From the NCBI GenBank assembly GCA_949127665.1, contig CASBQE010000351.1, positions 1-38,574 of the forward strand: 38,574 bases of DNA. The letters are read 5' to 3'. Positions 12,195 to 28,967 of the stretch are shown here, in pieces. Numbering within the stretch: position 1 is the stretch's first letter; the number at the start of each line of letters is the position of its first letter. The stretch is from Synechococcales cyanobacterium PMM_0083 (GTDB lineage: Bacteria; Cyanobacteriota; Cyanobacteriia; Leptolyngbyales; Leptolyngbyaceae). A program made the position numbers and the translations under genes. The notes beneath the pieces were generated by a model. The model searched no databases and was not told the DNA's origin. It worked only from the letters and a program-made list of their open reading frames with translations.

Positions 12195-14195
12195 TTAATT
12201 AGGATCTTCCGTAATCAAGCGATCGCGATAAAGCTGTGGTTGTGGCTGATCAAGTTCACTAAGTTGATTAGACGAATCGGCATAGCCCAAAACCTGGAAA
12301 ACCTCAACCAGGCTTTGCCTGCCGCGCAGTTGAAGATGTCCCCACGATTCCACATAAAACTGCTCTTGCAGATGGTCAAGTGTTTCACGAGCAATTAAAA
12401 TTCGACACTGATTAGTTTGCTTATCTTTTTGCCAAGCTTCTAGACGAGCAGCAATGTTGACACTATCCCCAATCACCGCATATTCCAAGCGATTTTTTCC
12501 GCCCAAGCTGCCTGCCATCACATCTCCGGTAAAGATTCCAGCCCGCATTTCCACGACAGGTAATCCTCTTTGCTGCCAATCCTGATTCAGCGTTTGTAGG
12601 CGATCGCCCATTTCAACCGCACAAGCAACTGTTTGCCGCGCATCTTCGGCAATTTCAGCGATCGTTAAACGCGGCACTGGCACACCAAACACCGCCATTA
12701 GTCCATCACCCATAAATTTGTTGATAATGCCGTGATGTTGATGAACGGCTTGAGTCATGCTAGACATATATTCATTTAGCCAGCCCATCATTACTTCGGG
12801 TGGATGTTGTTCGGAAATGCCGCTGAAGTTGCGAATGTCGATAAACAAAATGGTGACCGTGAGAGTTTGCCCCGCTAACCTGCCTGACTGGAGTAGGCGA
12901 TCGCGAGAATTCCATAAAGCCGAAGCAATTTCAGGTGAAGTCTGCTGTCCCAATAGCTTCATCACAATTTGCTGCTGCTGACGGGCGTATTGTATTTGGC
13001 AAGTAATGGTAAAGCTGCCGACCGCGATCGCGGCGATTGCCGGAGCCGCAATCGGAACCCATGCTTGATGCAAAAATAGACTATAGCCTGCACCCATCAA
13101 TAGCAACAGCAGCCCGGTTCCTGCCAATGCCAGCATAAATGGACGCTGCGACCATCCGGCAAGCAATCCCCCGGCGATCGCCCAGCTTACAATCCACAGC
13201 ACTTCCATTGGCTCAGACCAAAACCAAAACAGCGATCGCCCTTCTAGTGCAGCCGTTAGCGTTTGGCTGACCATTTGAGCATGAACCACCACTCCCGGCA
13301 TTTTAGAATTAGCTCTCGCAGCAGCACTAAAAGGAGTAAAAAACAAATCTTTGACGCTGGGTGCAATTGTGCCAATTAAGACAACGCGATCTTTAATCAG
13401 AGCAGGATTGACCTGGTTTTGCAAAACCTGACTCAACGTGACGACTTCCGAAGGATATTGAGCCGATCGATAGTCCAGTAAAATCTGTTCTCCTGCTGCA
13501 TCAATCCGTTGATAGCCACCCGAATTAGACCTTAATGGCGAAAAAACTGCCTTGCCCAATACAAAGTCTCCATTGGGCAAGCGATCGCTGGAATGATTCA
13601 AGTATTGCATTGCTAGCCGAGTGGAAAAGGATACATACTGTGCTGCGTCATCCGATACAAACATCAGATTTCGCCTGATAACGCCATCGGTGTCAGTAAT
13701 CAGATCGCTGAACCCAACCCGGTCAGAGGGTAGTTTAGGCGGGGCAGGAATCGCTTCTTCTGGGGTGTTTCCTAAAGATTGAATGGCAATCACATTAGAA
13801 CGCCGCAGTTCCTTCATTAGGGCATCATGTCCTGGCTCAGCGGGAATATCGCGTAAAATATCCAACCCAACTGCTCGTGGTTGATGCTGTTGAAGTTGGC
13901 TAAGCGCCGCCGCATAAACGCTATCAGGAAATGGCCAACGCTTCTGAGTCCGAATATCGGCTTCTGTGATGGCAACAATCAGCAGCCTAGAATCGACATC
14001 AGTCTCTGATCGCACCCGCACCATTGCGTCATAAACTGCTAACTCTGAGGATTCTAATTGACCTAACTGTCGAGTTCCTAGCACTAAGCCGGTGACGCTC
14101 ATTCCAGTCAGTATTAGCACTCCTAATTCTGTAGAAGTGCTTAGCGGCAAAAAGTTGCACCACCGTAAAAAAACTTGGCGAAACCAGACGATCAC
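12195..14195 (-). CDS. CHASE2-domain class III adenylate/guanylate cyclase
   Basis: 666 residues starting at GTG 14195, with AGAGGA about 9 bases upstream. Domains in order: an N-terminal membrane helix (about 20-42), an extracytoplasmic CHASE2 sensor (about 45-330: DSRLLIVAITEADI, PRAVGLDILRD, KDRVVLIGTIAPSVKDLF), three membrane helices (about 335-400), and a class III cyclase domain (about 440-640). The two metal Asp residues lie in ILFIDIRNFS and KFMGDGLMAVFG, and the transition-state Asn/Arg in GDSVNIAARLE. Lys in INKFMGDG matches the adenine-selecting Lys, but the second purine-selecting position, usually Thr or Asp (YTVIGD-type), is Ala (EYAVIGD). Makes cAMP most probably, in response to an unknown outside signal. 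Convergent with hli. Confidence 0.88.
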   Translation of the reverse strand: MIVWFRQVFLRWCNFLPLSTSTELGVLILTGMSVTGLVLGTRQLGQLESSELAVYDAMVRVRSETDVDSRLLIVAITEADIRTQKRWPFPDSVYAAALSQLQQHQPRAVGLDILRDIPAEPGHDALMKELRRSNVIAIQSLGNTPEEAIPAPPKLPSDRVGFSDLITDTDGVIRRNLMFVSDDAAQYVSFSTRLAMQYLNHSSDRLPNGDFVLGKAVFSPLRSNSGGYQRIDAAGEQILLDYRSAQYPSEVVTLSQVLQNQVNPALIKDRVVLIGTIAPSVKDLFFTPFSAAARANSKMPGVVVHAQMVSQTLTAALEGRSLFWFWSEPMEVLWIVSWAIAGGLLAGWSQRPFMLALAGTGLLLLLMGAGYSLFLHQAWVPIAAPAIAAIAVGSFTITCQIQYARQQQQIVMKLLGQQTSPEIASALWNSRDRLLQSGRLAGQTLTVTILFIDIRNFSGISEQHPPEVMMGWLNEYMSSMTQAVHQHHGIINKFMGDGLMAVFGVPVPRLTIAEIAEDARQTVACAVEMGDRLQTLNQDWQQRGLPVVEMRAGIFTGDVMAGSLGGKNRLEYAVIGDSVNIAARLEAWQKDKQTNQCRILIARETLDHLQEQFYVESWGHLQLRGRQSLVEVFQVLGYADSSNQLSELDQPQPQLYRDRLITEDPN

Positions 14196-19731: not shown

Positions 19732-22716
19732 CTACACTGTAATGCCAGTTCTGGTCGCCGTATTGGTTAACGCACTGATAGCCTGCTCTGTGGTCAAAGT
19801 AGGTCTGCCACTCAGCATTAGAGCGACAACGCCTGCCACATGGGGTGTTGCCATTGAGGTGCCGCTATAGTTTTCGTAACCATTATTGGGCAGGGTCGAG
19901 TAAACTCCCACACCCGGTGCAACCACATAGTTTACAGCAGGCAATCCGGCATCATTGGAGAAATTGGCTAGCTGGCTGTTGATGTTGACTGCTCCCACTG
20001 CAATCCCCCATTGGGCTGCCAGATTAGCCGGGAACCCAGGGCTGGCACTGAACTCATTGCCCGATGCCATCACCACGATCGCTCCCCGTTCTGCCGCATA
20101 TTGCACTGCGGATGCAACCTCGCCAGAGTAACTACCACCAAGGCTGAGATTAATCACTCTTGCGCCATTATTCGCCGCATAGCGGATTCCTGCCGCCACA
20201 TCACTCAAGGTGCCGCTGCCGTCAGCACCTAGCACTCTGACAGGCATGATTCTGGCATTGTAAGCAACACCAATCGATCCAGTACCATTATTTTCGGCGG
20301 CGATCGTGCCTGCTACATGGGTGCCATGACCATTTAGATCCAGGGGAGTATTGTCATTGTTTGCAAAGTCCCAGCCGCGCACATCGTCGATATAGCCATT
20401 GCCGTCATCGTCAATCCCATTTCCAGAAACTTCGCCGCTGTTTACCCAGATATTGGCATCCAGATCGGGGTGAGTGTAATCCACTCCAGTATCAACAACT
20501 GCCACCACCACTCCTTCCCCTGTGAAGCCCTGCGCCCAAACTTCTGGGGCATTGACTAGATCCAAATTCCAGCTATTGCCACCCAAGTCTGGCACATTGG
20601 CATAGGGAGATTGTCCGGTGACTTGAGCAACGGCTGCCGCTGCATTGACCAATCCATAGCCATAGTTGAGGTTGTATCCGGTGGGAAGAATGATTGGAGA
20701 GGCTGAGGCGGTTAGGGTGTAGTTAGTGCTGCCGCTGTAGGGAAAGACTCGAATGTAGTAGGTTCCTGCTGCCAATGCGATCGTCAAACTTTCAGGCAAC
20801 GTGCCGTTTTGCCACGGATAGGCAAGGATTTCACCGGAGTCGATCGCGCCATTGCTGTTGGCATCTTGAATCAACTGGAGATCAGCATCTGCGCTCAAGC
20901 CCAACAGGTTTAGACTGACGCTGTTGGTGCCATCAAGCGTAAAGCGGTAGAAATCGTTTGCATCTCCGCTGCCAATATAGTCGCTAAAGGTTTGCAGACT
21001 GCTGAGGATGCCAATATTACGAGCCGTTGCCAGGGTATTGCCAGCATCGTCAACTGGAGCAGTGTAGGGTGTTGCGGAGGCAGTTAAAGTGTAGGTGGTG
21101 CTGCCGCTGTAGGGAAAGACCCGGATGTAGTAGTTTCCTGCTGCCAGCCCGATTGTCAAACTTTCAGGCAATGTGCCGCCTTGCCAGGGATAGGCAAGTA
21201 CATCACCGGAGTCGATCGCGCCATTGCCATTCACATCTTGGATTAACTGCAAGTCAGCGTCCGCGCTCAAGCCCGATAGATTTAGACTGACGTTGTTTGT
21301 GCCGTTAAGCGTAAAGCGGTAGAAATCGTTTGCATCTCCGCTGCCAACATAGTCGCTAAAGGTTTGCAGACTGCTGAGGATGCCAATATCACGAGCCGTT
21401 GCCAGGGTATTGCCAGCATCAACTGGAGCAGAAATCGCTGCGGTCGTCAGGTTGAGGACATAGTTCGTCTCGCCACTAAATTGGTAGACCTGGACAAAGT
21501 AATCGCCTGCTTGCAAATTTTGAGTCAAAGTTTCTGATAAGGTGCCGCTTTGGTTAGAGGAGGCAAGCATCTCGCCAACGTCTACGATCCCGTTGTTATT
21601 AGCATCGCGAATCAACCGTAGATTAGAATCTGCATTTAACCCAGACAGATTGACGGTTAGGGCACGGGCAGTGTCGAGACTAAAGCGATAAACATCTACG
21701 GTGTCGTTGTTATAAATTGACCCCAAAACGGTCTGAGTTGCGCTGAGCGCACCGAGATTGACCTCGGTAGGCAACAGATTGCTGGGATCAGCGTTCGACA
21801 GGTTCAGGGTGTAGCTGGTATAGCCATTGAACTGATAAACCTGAGCGAAGTAGGTGCCTGCTGCCAGCGATCGCAGATTAATAGACTCATCCAACGCTTT
21901 TCCCCGCTGCGATCGCGCCACTTCCTCGCCAGCCTCAACAATGCCATTATTGTTGGCATCTCGAATCACTCGCACATCTGCGTCGGCGCTTAATCCAGTT
22001 AGCGATAAATTCAAGGGAGCATTAGCGCCAAGCGTGAAGCGATAAAGATCCGTCGTATCTTTGCTGCTGAATGAACCGGTCACAGTCTGCGGCGAGCTTA
22101 AAGATCCGAGTGTCACCCCACCTGTGAGAAACTCGCTCACATCGCTATTGGACAGACGCAGCGAATAGGCAGTATTTCCTGAAAACTGATACACCTGCAC
22201 AAAGTAGGTGCCTGTCGCCAAACTGTCCAGATTCATAAATTCATCAGCGGTTCCAGATAGATCCGACCGTTTAATTTCTTCGCCGATATCGACAGCGCCG
22301 TTGGCGTTTAGGTCTTTAAACAATTTCACATCGGCATCGGCGGTGAGGTTGGTTAACGCCAAGTTGAAGGTGCTGAGTTTCGTCAAGCTGAAGCGATAAA
22401 AGTCGGAGGCATCCGTGTTGCCCACAGAACCACTTTGGATAATTACCCCTTTCAGAACGTCGAGATCGATCGCAGAACTGGGAAAATCGTCCGCATCGGC
22501 AACAGTCACCTTGTTTGAGGAACTTGCCCATCCTGTAATCATCGCTTGATCTAGCATAGAACTGCTTCTGGCTTGTAAGTTGGGCGAGAAGCGATCGCCC
22601 ACTAAATCTGTCAGCCGAGCATCTAACAAGTTCGGGAAAATTTCGTCTGAAACCTCTGCTTGAGAGGACAGACTGTTGCTAGTTGATAGAACATTCTGAA
22701 ATAGATCGTTTGGCAT
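19732..22716 (-). CDS. Subtilisin-like serine protease with five N-terminal PPC repeats
   Basis: 994 residues. There is no Sec signal peptide, so secretion, if any, uses another route. Five beta-sandwich pre-peptidase repeats (about residues 80-675) each contain DFYRF/DLYRF/DVYRF, a dockerin/EF-hand-like loop (DLNANGAVDIGEE, DANNNGIVEAGEE, DVNGNGAIDSGDV) and TYFVQVYQFSG or YYIRVFPYSG. The S8 catalytic domain follows (about 725-990) with Asp742 in VVDTGVDYTHPDLD, His797 in NGHGTHVAGT, Ser954 in SGTSMATPHVAG, and the acidic loop GIDDDGNGYIDDV. PPC domains normally sit C-terminal and are removed; here they precede the protease. The fourth and fifth repeats are near-identical. Calcium dependence is inferred from the loops. 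Confidence 0.92.
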   Translation of the reverse strand: MPNDLFQNVLSTSNSLSSQAEVSDEIFPNLLDARLTDLVGDRFSPNLQARSSSMLDQAMITGWASSSNKVTVADADDFPSSAIDLDVLKGVIIQSGSVGNTDASDFYRFSLTKLSTFNLALTNLTADADVKLFKDLNANGAVDIGEEIKRSDLSGTADEFMNLDSLATGTYFVQVYQFSGNTAYSLRLSNSDVSEFLTGGVTLGSLSSPQTVTGSFSSKDTTDLYRFTLGANAPLNLSLTGLSADADVRVIRDANNNGIVEAGEEVARSQRGKALDESINLRSLAAGTYFAQVYQFNGYTSYTLNLSNADPSNLLPTEVNLGALSATQTVLGSIYNNDTVDVYRFSLDTARALTVNLSGLNADSNLRLIRDANNNGIVDVGEMLASSNQSGTLSETLTQNLQAGDYFVQVYQFSGETNYVLNLTTAAISAPVDAGNTLATARDIGILSSLQTFSDYVGSGDANDFYRFTLNGTNNVSLNLSGLSADADLQLIQDVNGNGAIDSGDVLAYPWQGGTLPESLTIGLAAGNYYIRVFPYSGSTTYTLTASATPYTAPVDDAGNTLATARNIGILSSLQTFSDYIGSGDANDFYRFTLDGTNSVSLNLLGLSADADLQLIQDANSNGAIDSGEILAYPWQNGTLPESLTIALAAGTYYIRVFPYSGSTNYTLTASASPIILPTGYNLNYGYGLVNAAAAVAQVTGQSPYANVPDLGGNSWNLDLVNAPEVWAQGFTGEGVVVAVVDTGVDYTHPDLDANIWVNSGEVSGNGIDDDGNGYIDDVRGWDFANNDNTPLDLNGHGTHVAGTIAAENNGTGSIGVAYNARIMPVRVLGADGSGTLSDVAAGIRYAANNGARVINLSLGGSYSGEVASAVQYAAERGAIVVMASGNEFSASPGFPANLAAQWGIAVGAVNINSQLANFSNDAGLPAVNYVVAPGVGVYSTLPNNGYENYSGTSMATPHVAGVVALMLSGRPTLTTEQAISALTNTATRTGITV
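20690..21435 (-). repeat. Two near-identical PPC repeat units in the subtilase gene
   Basis: Tandem units with a period of about 372 bases (124 residues) encode repeats 4 and 5. Shared tracts include GNTLATAR(N/D)IGILSSLQTFSDY and TLPESLTI. The other three repeats are clearly more diverged, so this duplication is recent or kept similar by gene conversion. Confidence 0.85.
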
Positions 22717-23152
22717 TGTGCTAACCCTATGTGTAGTGAGAAGTACAGCAATAGAAACTGAATAGGTTGCTTGATTAATCTATCGGCAGCACGCATATGT
22801 TTTTTGCAAAAACTTTCAACTGCATCATCATGGAAATGATCTTGCGGCTACGCTAGCCCGGTATGATTTTGTTTGTCGTCAATAGTGACATCAGCTTGAG
22901 TTCGATTCGCTCCGGACTGTAGAGACTTTTTTTACCCCAAGTCTTTAGCCCTGGAAAGCGTGAGCCTTTGATGCGATATGGGGCGTGAGCCTTTGATACG
23001 ATTAGTATGGCAACGAAAAATCTAATGGCTTGTTTGACCCCGCGATCGCGTCTATCGATTGATTTTTCACAGGCATGTCGCGATTAGCACTTAACTATGC
23101 TAAAAAAACAGGATTAGACCTTAAATTTAAACATTCACTTAAACATTCACCG
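22717..23152. other. Upstream region of yajQ with short direct repeats
   Basis: Two copies of gcgtgagcctttgatrcgat lie at 22958-22977 and 22983-23002, a 25-base period. TTAAACATTCAC occurs twice in tandem just before the yajQ ATG (about 23127-23150). The minus-strand subtilase leader also lies here. The track's yajQ frame begins at 23075 but that extension is not conserved family sequence. Confidence 0.6.
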
Positions 23153-23644
23153 ATGGCTGCAAACTATTCCTTCGATATTGTCAGCGAGTTCGATCGCCAA
23201 GAGTTGGTCAATGCGCTTGATCAAGCAACCCGCGAGATTCAGAGTCGCTATGACCTAAAAGACACCAAAACAACTGTGGAACTCGGCGAAGAAGCAATCA
23301 CCATCAACACCGACAGCGACTTCACTTTAGATGCCGTCAACAGTTTGATTCAAACGAAAGCGATTAAGCGCAACCTATCTCTAAAGATTTTTGACTATGG
23401 TAAGGTCGAAGCTGCCAGTGGTACTCGTGTGCGGCAAGAAGTGAAATTGAAAAAAGGAATTTCTCAAGAACTCGCCAAACAAATTTCTAAGCTAATTCGC
23501 GATGAGTTTAGCAAAATTCAAGCATCCATTCAGGGAGATGCAGTAAGGGTTACGGCAAAATCTAAAGATGATTTGCAAGACGTAATCCAGCGCTTAAAAC
23601 AAGAAGACTATCCAACTCCTCTGCAATTTACCAACTATCGCTAG
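23153..23644 (+). CDS. yajQ: YajQ-family nucleotide-binding protein
   Basis: 163 residues from ATG 23153 ([21 protein letters not shown]), matching the family N-terminus (xSFDIVSExD); the track's 26 extra codons are dropped. The two-fold ferredoxin-like pattern is complete, with [40 protein letters not shown] and the end [16 protein letters not shown]. Some YajQ homologues bind cyclic di-GMP or act as RNA/nucleotide-binding factors; which applies here cannot be told. It stands alone between the subtilase and histidine kinase genes. Confidence 0.95.
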
Positions 23645-23825: not shown

Positions 23826-25481
23826 GTGCCAAAGTGGTTGTTGCCAACTTTAAGTGAAGTGATAGCGCTGAATGATCCAACCTGGACTATTGGCATGTCA
23901 GATTCAGCAAGTGATGTCAAGCCTGAAGCATCTCAGCGGTCAGGTAGCCGTGTCGCTTTACAGCAGCTTAGGGCAGAAGGGGAATGGTATGCGGCGATCG
24001 CGGCGCTCAACATTCTTCTACAGCAGCATCTTACTGTTCCCAAGACTCCCGCCTACGCAGCCGCCCAAACCGTTGCCCAAACGTTAAATGGCAATGACGA
24101 TCAGGCAATTTCTGGCATGATCTTATCGGGTCCTACTCCTGTTTTCAATCATCCTCAAATTGTCAAGCAGTTTGCAACACGAACTCTGGCAGCCACATCC
24201 CTACATTCGCCTCACTGGATGCCGTTTCAGTTGCTTCCAGCAGAAGCGGGGACCTGTGCTAGTGACCATCCGCTGCCCGTGTTGCCGTTACTACCCGGCG
24301 ATCCCCTGGCGGCAGAACCGTTTTGTCTGGTGATGACTCCCTGGTTCAGTTTAGTTATGGTCTTGGGCGAAACTTTGACCCAAGAACCAGCCTTTTTGTT
24401 TTCGTTTGTGCCAGAAGTCGTGCAGCAAGCTTGGGAGGCAATTCGCCCTCGGATTTTGTTGATGACTTCTCACCAGGTCGATCGCCTGGATGAATTAGTG
24501 CATCAGTTTTCGCCCGTTTCGCCAGACTATAAAACGGTGATGCAGTTTAGCCGCTTGATGTTGGAATTGTTCGACTTGTTGGAAGATGATCAGCCAGAAG
24601 TAAGTTCTCAAATAGAGGAGTTTAATGGCTCAAATGAGGGTCAAAAAGGAAAAATTGCTCAGAATTCTGCTCGGTCAAAAGCGTTTGGCAATCAAACGAT
24701 CCCAGTGCAAGCAGAACTAGATGAGAAATATTTGGATGTGGAATTGGTGCAGGCGATCGCCCATGAAGTTCGCACCCCGTTGACCACCATTCGCACCTTA
24801 ACGCGATCGCTGCTCAAGCGCCTCGATTTAGCGCCTGATGTGCTGAAGCGGCTGGGCATTATCGATCGCGAATGCAGCGAACAGATTGATCGCTTTGGGC
24901 TGATCTTTCGCGCGATGGAACTGGAAACGACCGCCACCCATTCGCCCCAAATGTCTTTGATTCGTACCTCTGTCGTGGATGTGTTTCAACAGAGCATTCC
25001 TCGCTGGCAGCAGCAAGCCAGCCAACGCCAGATGACCCTAGACATCGTTGTACCGGAAGCAATGCCAGCCGTTGTCAGCGACCCAACCATGCTAGAACAG
25101 GTACTCACTAGCCTAATCGAGCGCTTCACCCGCAATTTGCCTGCGGGTAGCCACATTCAAGTAGACGTAACCTTGGCGGGAGATCAGCTTAAACTCCAGT
25201 TGCAATCCCTGTTAGACACCGCCAGCCAAAGTAGCTGTAAGGGATTATTTGGCACTTCTCTGCCCAAGCCTTCGCCCAAGTCAATCGGTCGGATGCTGAT
25301 GTTTCAACCAGAGACAGGCAGCCTTAGCCTCACCTTAGCAGTGACGAAAAGTTTGTTTCAGGCGATCGGCGGCAAACTAACGGTCAAACAACGTCCTAAA
25401 GCCGGAGAAATTATGACGGTTTACCTGCCTCTAGAAATGGAGCGATCGCCGTTGGAAAGTAGTAAAGTTATCACAGTTTAA
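23826..25481 (+). CDS. Histidine kinase with conserved H-box and degraded ATP-binding domain
   Basis: 551 residues from GTG 23826, preceded by GAGGGATAAGG. The N-terminal half (about 40-270) is a soluble input region with no membrane helix and no recognised sensor fold (LQQLRAEGEWYAAIAALNILL, PFCLVMTPWFSLVMVLG). A low-complexity linker leads to the dimerisation domain with His313 in QAIAHEVRTPLTTIRTL. The catalytic part lacks key motifs: the N-box position reads LEQVLTSLIERFTRNL with no Asn-Ala, and no DxGxG is seen, only a late LSLTLAVTKSLFQAIGGKLTV (G2-like). It may be phosphorylated by a partner, act as a scaffold, or be inactive. No response regulator is adjacent. Confidence 0.8.
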   Translation: MPKWLLPTLSEVIALNDPTWTIGMSDSASDVKPEASQRSGSRVALQQLRAEGEWYAAIAALNILLQQHLTVPKTPAYAAAQTVAQTLNGNDDQAISGMILSGPTPVFNHPQIVKQFATRTLAATSLHSPHWMPFQLLPAEAGTCASDHPLPVLPLLPGDPLAAEPFCLVMTPWFSLVMVLGETLTQEPAFLFSFVPEVVQQAWEAIRPRILLMTSHQVDRLDELVHQFSPVSPDYKTVMQFSRLMLELFDLLEDDQPEVSSQIEEFNGSNEGQKGKIAQNSARSKAFGNQTIPVQAELDEKYLDVELVQAIAHEVRTPLTTIRTLTRSLLKRLDLAPDVLKRLGIIDRECSEQIDRFGLIFRAMELETTATHSPQMSLIRTSVVDVFQQSIPRWQQQASQRQMTLDIVVPEAMPAVVSDPTMLEQVLTSLIERFTRNLPAGSHIQVDVTLAGDQLKLQLQSLLDTASQSSCKGLFGTSLPKPSPKSIGRMLMFQPETGSLSLTLAVTKSLFQAIGGKLTVKQRPKAGEIMTVYLPLEMERSPLESSKVITV

Positions 25482-28361: not shown

Positions 28362-28967
28362 ATGAGTTTGAATGGTATGTGCTTCTCTGGTTCTGTCTTC
28401 TCTCGGCTGCGATCGCTGCTTCCTTGGCGTAAACTATGCCTGTTGGCAATCAGCCTGCTGATTTTGTTGAATGGGATGAATATGCCAGCGGCGATCGCGG
28501 GGTTAAACGACGATCGCTATGAAGGCGACATTTTCACACTCTACGCAGGAAACGGCTCTCTCGTGCCGCCCAAAGTCACCCTAGAGCAAGCCTTCGAGCG
28601 AAAACGCCCCACAATATTAATTTTTTATGTAGACGACAATAGCGATAGCAAAAAATATTCCACGGTTGTCTCCCAACTGCAAGCATTTTATGGTCGCGCC
28701 GCAGATTTGATTGCGCTGCGTGTAGATGCGATTCCACCCAAAAAAACCTATGCAAAAACAGAGGCAGGCTATTACTACGGCGGAGTTGTGCCCCAAACCG
28801 TTCTATTTGACGAAACCGGCAAAGTTGTTCTCAATCAAAAAGGTAGCGTTCCCTATGAACAATTAGACGACGTATTGCGGAAAGTGTTTAAGTTAGTGCC
28901 CCGATCCGAATCAAGGGAGCTAAAACGTCAGCCTATCAACGAATTCAACACCGAACTGATTCGCTAA
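28362..28967 (+). CDS. Thioredoxin-fold lumenal protein, photosystem I accumulation factor-like
   Basis: 201 residues. A long N-terminal region ends in a signal helix (LCLLAISLLILLNGMNMPAAIAG, cleavage likely after AIA). The mature part has a thioredoxin-like order: PTILIFYVDDNSDSKKYSTVVSQLQAFYG, LIALRVDAIP, YYYGGVVPQTVLFDETGKVV (cis-Pro equivalent VVPQ). The WCxxC active site is absent, replaced by YVDDNSDSKK, so it is not a redox enzyme. Cyanobacterial proteins of this kind are annotated as thylakoid membrane photosystem I accumulation factors (recalled, not searched). It is divergent from the FurC-like regulator with about 215 bases between starts, which may link it to peroxide or light stress. 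Confidence 0.75.
   Translation: MSLNGMCFSGSVFSRLRSLLPWRKLCLLAISLLILLNGMNMPAAIAGLNDDRYEGDIFTLYAGNGSLVPPKVTLEQAFERKRPTILIFYVDDNSDSKKYSTVVSQLQAFYGRAADLIALRVDAIPPKKTYAKTEAGYYYGGVVPQTVLFDETGKVVLNQKGSVPYEQLDDVLRKVFKLVPRSESRELKRQPINEFNTELIR

Follow-up and report, generated by a model that had tools for sequence, protein, structure and literature searches.

The 38,574-nucleotide stretch of DNA analyzed here (the window) encodes a histidine-kinase-like protein belonging to a core family of the Cyanobacteriia, in which the phospho-acceptor histidine is invariant and the G1 and G2 motifs of the ATP site are consistently missing (hereafter, the His-only family). Judged by its HisKA domain, this near-universal protein is a sensor kinase, but judged by its motifs it cannot act as one alone. 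Furthermore, the same genome encodes a paralog with the mirror-image lesion, an intact ATP site without the histidine (the ATP-only family). The motif losses, which a preliminary description had noted in the single sequence, mark a core family and are accompanied by a candidate for a reciprocal partner. With modest confidence, we favor the explanation that the His-only protein is an ATP-less phosphotransfer (perhaps phosphatase) protein that may form a split kinase with this paralog in some lineages.

An orphan kinase-like gene with a complete H-box

The His-only gene starts with GTG and encodes 551 aa in an intact frame, residue 1 aligning with Met1, which is conserved among the orthologs. 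It is located on contig G000:C351 of a draft genome of 4.6 Mb (484 contigs, approximately 86% complete). The HisKA match (residues 306-351) scored 29.2 bits, above its Pfam threshold of 26.9, the HATPase_c match (residues 419-537) scored 18.8 bits, below its threshold of 26.4, and the H-box, with His313 within AIAHEVRTPL, is complete. The following features were assigned to the gene and its product:

23826..25481, + strand: His-only histidine-kinase-like protein, 551 aa (open reading frame, Pfam, orthologs)
24258..24575, + strand: DICT-like sensory segment, approximately residues 145-250 (profile-profile match to the N-terminus of the ATP-only paralog; pLDDT 92-97)
24723..24935, + strand: DHp/HisKA helical hairpin, residues 300-370 (HisKA above the Pfam cut-off; model helices)
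24762..24776, + strand: H-box HEVRT with phospho-acceptor His313 and a phosphatase-type ExxT motif formed by E314 and T317 (conservation)
24948..25436, + strand: degenerate CA (HATPase-like) domain, residues 375-537, with a predicted Bergerat-type fold and without ATP motifs (Pfam, alignment, model, dN/dS)
25122..25124, + strand: Arg433 at the N-box Asn position (ortholog alignment)
25206..25208, + strand: Ser461 in place of the D-box Asp, with loss of the G1 box (ortholog alignment)
25278..25331, + strand: family-specific segment KSxGQLLMFQPETGSLSL replacing the ATP lid and G2 loop (conservation; three short model strands)

No response regulator gene adjoins the His-only gene in the window, and in this sense it is an orphan, as are most cyanobacterial kinases and regulators. 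Its locus tag in the model strain might be slr1414, a tentative assignment. Just upstream lies a YajQ/DUF520 gene annotated as cyclic-di-GMP binding (23075-23644, + strand), relatives of which were found near the His-only gene in only 2 of 80 loci. The window also encodes a protein with CHASE2 and adenylate/guanylate cyclase domains (12195-14195, - strand), a subtilase-domain protein of 994 aa with five PPC stretches (19732-22716, - strand), and, approximately 3 kb from the His-only gene, a thylakoid photosystem I accumulation factor of the slr1796 family (28362-28967, + strand).

G1 and G2 motifs are missing throughout the family

Alignment with intact kinases placed Arg433 at the N-box Asn position (LTSLIERFT vs NLLHNAIKF) and Ser461 at the D-box Asp position (LQLQSLL vs EIRDTGVGI), while GxGLGL of the intact kinases corresponds to SLSLTL at residues 499-504. 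Neither DxGxG nor GLGL occurs anywhere after residue 441 of the window protein. These positions were followed through 157 orthologs, which were gathered by a protein search in 58 genomes, a profile-based scan of GTDB genomes (80 loci), and the addition of 20 further loci from lineages chosen for the absence of the ATP-only paralog. The phospho-acceptor His is present in 157/157 orthologs, DxGxG and GLGL are each found in 0/157, and the D-box Asp is found in 0/137. Thus, the complete H-box and the missing DxGxG box reported in the preliminary description are properties of the whole family, and the two escapes it had left open, namely orthologs with intact boxes or motifs that are simply displaced, did not materialize for G1 and G2: no intact box was found, and displacement was ruled out, as no DxGxG or GLGL lies downstream in any of the 157 sequences. 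Its statement that the N-box lacks the Asn is correct for the window protein and its clade, where Arg is the rule, but it does not extend to the family, in which this column holds Arg in 86, Asn in 58, and other residues in 13 of the 157 orthologs, with Asn kept mainly in Nostocales and Oscillatoriales. Since the same losses recur across the 157 orthologs, G1 and G2 were, on the evidence of the alignment, already lost in the ancestor of the His-only family, while the N-box Asn survives in part and its loss is clade-specific.

Other positions are nearly fixed. Within the ExxT motif, T317 is conserved in 137/137 and E314 in 135/137 sequences, and within the segment that replaces the lid, Q494, P495, E496, T497, and G498 are conserved in 133, 136, 130, 136, and 137 of 137 sequences, respectively. 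In one ortholog (L052, genome G052), the residue following the His is Ser rather than Glu (AHSVRTPL), a natural ExxT variant.

The degenerate CA domain is widely distributed and strongly constrained

The protein search identified orthologs in 57 of the 58 genomes, the remaining genome (G049) matching only with an ordinary kinase. Among 292 genomes searched across the phylum, with presence scored at E<=1e-30, the family matched 137 of the 139 Cyanobacteriia and nothing outside this class; the two Cyanobacteriia without a match (G049 and G286) represent one genus. The family reaches down to picocyanobacterial genomes of 1.6-1.7 Mb.

For a comparison of the window protein with that of a congener (88% identical), NG86 dN/dS, with ratios taken from separate dN and dS, amounted to 0.029 for the CA-like domain, 0.050 for the DHp domain, and 0.168 for the N-terminal part. 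Moreover, the mean top frequency in the family alignment was 0.75 for residues 484-536 and 0.73 for the DHp domain, compared to 0.20 for the loop of residues 462-483. The domain that the preliminary description called eroded is therefore under the strongest purifying selection in the protein and is a working domain rather than a decaying one; low dN/dS and conservation without the ATP motifs indicate that it is kept for something. A local pseudogene or recent decay in a single genome, for which nothing speaks beyond the motif losses themselves, is practically untenable, being ruled out by the sharing of these losses among 157 orthologs and by dN/dS well below 1 in an intact frame.

The AlphaFold2 model of the window protein (65 sequences) has a mean pLDDT of 81.7, and its DHp and CA regions are confidently predicted. 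Helices 296-330 and 337-368 form the DHp hairpin, and short strands at residues 485-487, 491-494, and 499-502 occupy the place of the ATP lid and G2 loop. In line with the structure prediction that the preliminary description had proposed as a check, a Bergerat-type CA fold is predicted to be retained. The strong constraint on this domain, the nearly invariant QPETG segment, and the N-box Asn kept in 58 orthologs could be taken to mean that it still binds ATP or another ligand through its replaced motifs, so that the protein would still be a kinase that works unaided, or else a sensor of metabolites; however, with the D-box Asp, DxGxG, and GLGL absent in all sequences and Asn changed to Arg in the clade of the window protein, we regard this as very improbable.

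Foldseek searches of the PDB with the model ranked ZraS, DivL, and RetS-GacS at the top, and sequence profiles returned the same names. The presence of RetS and DivL among the nearest solved structures, by sequence as well as by fold, is what an allosteric pseudokinase would lead one to expect, i.e., a protein whose mixed dimers tune intact kinases and in which phosphorylation of His313 is incidental. However, His313 is invariant in 157 sequences across the class, whereas a pure scaffold has no need of a His and DivL itself has lost its phospho-acceptor His, which makes this reading improbable.

A DICT-domain paralog with the reciprocal loss

The preliminary description suggested that the protein could serve as a scaffold for phosphotransfer, dependent on another kinase. 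This remains the best-fitting reading and is supported in part, by the (near-)invariant His and ExxT residues and by ATP-site residues that were lost throughout the family under strong purifying selection. Its other suggestion, that a different ligand is bound, gained no support and was not contradicted. As to the other kinase, a candidate was found in a DICT-domain paralog with an intact ATP site and without the phospho-acceptor His. DICT, HisKA, and HATPase_c domains were each detected in 24/24 members of this ATP-only family. With diverse lineages included (n=99), its phospho-acceptor column consists of 88 Gln, 9 Arg, 1 Glu, and 1 His (Gln in 32/33 and 78/79 in smaller sets), while the N-box Asn, D-box Asp, and G2 Gly are each conserved in 98/98 sequences, one row being gapped. 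The predicted model of the ATP-only protein shows an ordinary kinase core, nearest to HK853 structures. The genome of the window contains a member on another contig (G000:C158, locus L061), with Gln at the phospho-acceptor position and an intact ATP site. Hence, reciprocal motif losses are found within one genome, the functions of both proteins being read from their motifs.

Profile-profile comparison of the two families aligned their N-terminal regions (probability 94.5, E 7.7e-8) and their DHp-CA regions (E 1.8e-23); therefore, a common DICT-type architecture is probable at the level of sequence. Pfam DICT itself gave no match in the window protein and matched only 4 of 40 His-only members at E<0.1 (best 0.016). 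In the tree, each family forms one clade with full support. A sister relationship of the two was not retained, as the tree does not join them.

Since Arg and Glu also occur at this position, a catalytic role specific to Gln is unlikely in the ATP-only paralog. The only ATP-only paralog with His (L101:8030-9460, - strand; CAC codon, CHELRTPL) stems from an uncultured Nostoc MAG and possibly represents a natural reversion or an assembly error. Likewise, Gln in the H-box was dismissed as a widespread trait, the remaining Gln matches inspected being a histidyl-tRNA-synthetase-like protein and a third kinase family. The latter, present in many of these genomes, is doubly degenerate, with the H-box QELRTPLTSVxGM lacking the phospho-acceptor and a CA part lacking both the N-box Asn and DxGxG; it was not found by pattern in the draft genome of the window and was located as follows:

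L210:1840-3372, L212:1866-3338, and L216:1801-3375, + strand (also L213-L215 and L217): doubly degenerate kinase family (H-box pattern)

Genomic neighborhood and co-occurrence

Downstream of the His-only gene, 30 of the 80 loci have the ATP-only gene as a convergent neighbor, with gaps of 2 to 2373 bp. The pair is found within approximately 3.3 kb in 13 genomes, always convergent, and across nine family codes (f7, f18, f25, f28, f33, f34, f36, f39, and f40). The recurrence of this arrangement is not by itself strong proof of a functional link, and adjacency was dropped as such because murE is also syntenic, accompanying the pair in 28/30 loci and lying near the His-only gene without the paralog in 4 loci. 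What the synteny documents is an old neighborhood, which may be merely inherited, and not a function.

At E<=1e-70, a cut-off that could miss diverged copies, the ATP-only family was detected in 36 of 139 Cyanobacteriia genomes. All 36 also contain the His-only gene, but co-occurrence was likewise dropped as proof of pairing, since the absence of unaccompanied ATP-only genes (0/36) is weak evidence when the His-only gene is nearly universal. The scores of both families across 35 genomes correlated with a Spearman coefficient of 0.50, in which shared ancestry is uncontrolled, and this was not counted as evidence. Conversely, in 101 of 137 genomes the His-only gene occurs without the paralog at the same cut-off and, therefore, pairing cannot be the general function of the His-only family. 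At one locus (L051, genome G038), a short kinase (open frame of 327 aa, HEMRNPL, intact DNGPGI) adjoins the His-only gene in the same orientation and could be an alternative partner.

The picocyanobacteria (family f2) show a different arrangement. In 14 loci (L188-L194 and L196-L202), the order mrp-rodA-His-only-psaD is kept on one strand, so that rodA and psaD, a photosystem I gene, flank the His-only gene, and trpE follows in 13 of them; the ATP-only paralog is absent at all 14 loci examined. Three complete kinases, in addition to one more HATPase match (L291), were recognized in G035, a genome of 1.7 Mb, and the fact that all three have their own His speaks against pairing. Judging from this complement, the His-only protein of G035 must either depend on one of these kinases, obtain phosphoryl groups from a regulator by reverse transfer, or work as a phosphatase.

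The persistence of the His-only family without the paralog, including at all f2 loci examined, together with the retained HE-x-x-T motif and the precedent of ChpT as an ATP-less kinase-like phosphotransferase (PMC3433190), could argue for a stand-alone phosphatase or HPt-like relay that serves a core response regulator, acting on its own or with phosphoryl groups returned by a phosphorylated regulator, and is unrelated to the ATP-only paralog. Yet this would leave the mirror-image lesions and the recurrent neighborhood as coincidence, and the window has no response regulator gene beside the His-only gene; we regard it as rather unlikely, if by no means negligible.

Proposed mechanism and significance

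In the explanation favored here, the His-only family would descend from a HisKA histidine kinase that kept its dimerization and phospho-acceptor part and lost ATP binding. His313 would take a phosphoryl group from another protein and pass it to (or receive it from) a response regulator, and the ExxT motif would also permit phosphatase action. The CA-like domain would have acquired a new role, perhaps in binding partners, with the DICT-like segment serving as input. The sequence conservation makes it likely that the His-only protein is an ATP-less phosphotransfer/phosphatase protein. Where present, the ATP-only paralog (L061 in the genome of the window) is the best candidate for the donor, in the role that CheA4 has toward CheA3 (PMC3591291), and the two could constitute a split, heteromeric histidine kinase in which the CA domain of the ATP-only subunit phosphorylates His313 of the His-only subunit; from the motif states, we consider this pairing possible, at somewhat less than even chances. 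An obligate two-protein HisKA kinase that arose by reciprocal loss in two DICT-type kinases, with the His half also acting as a core cyanobacterial signaling protein with other partners, is a tentative and rather doubtful proposal.

Should the His-only protein prove to be a phosphotransferase or a phosphatase, it would fill a gap in the core two-component wiring of cyanobacteria. Should it pair with the ATP-only paralog, the two would parallel, in nature, the classical complementation between kinase mutants in mixed dimers.

Comparison with known systems

In the open-access literature searched, no paper on the His-only family was found; phosphotransferase and split-kinase behaviors are known there, and their combination in DICT-type HisKA proteins was not found described. 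The closest parallels to the phosphotransfer function are ChpT of Caulobacter and Spo0B of Bacillus, which combine a DHp-type hairpin bearing a phospho-acceptor His with a CA-like domain making no use of ATP, a pattern that the motifs of the His-only protein fit. ChpT has no autokinase activity and bound no ATP in crystals, and its altered lid was suggested by the authors to serve partner binding (PMC3433190). In contrast to both proteins, the His-only protein has a DICT-like N-terminal region, an intact HisKA signature, and a different conserved segment in place of the lid. The ChpT family (HPTransfase, PF10090) gave no match in 40 His-only members at E<0.1, and neither ChpT nor Spo0B was among the PDB profile matches at E<0.01.

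Split kinases are known from CheA3/CheA4 of Rhodobacter sphaeroides, in which one protein carries the phospho-acceptor His and phosphatase activity and the other the ATPase, neither autophosphorylating alone, and the HE-x-x-T motif has been used to mark possible bifunctional split kinases (PMC3591291). While these are CheA-type proteins with deleted domains, the candidate partners described here are full-length HisKA-type proteins with reciprocal motif losses. Similarly, Hik36-Hik43 of Synechocystis, a two-protein split kinase with two-hybrid support (PMC7656254), consists of an HPt protein and a CheA/PilL-type kinase with a CheW-interaction domain and not of HisKA proteins. RetS and DivL, besides ZraS the nearest folds, are signaling pseudokinases that act on other kinases, RetS by heterodimerization with GacS, whereas the His-only family has kept its His without exception. 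Finally, intact DICT-domain histidine kinases with DICT, HisKA, and CA domains exist in the same genomes (e.g., G000:C44, locus L252); unlike either degenerate family, these keep both the His and the ATP motifs, and the tree groups them with neither.
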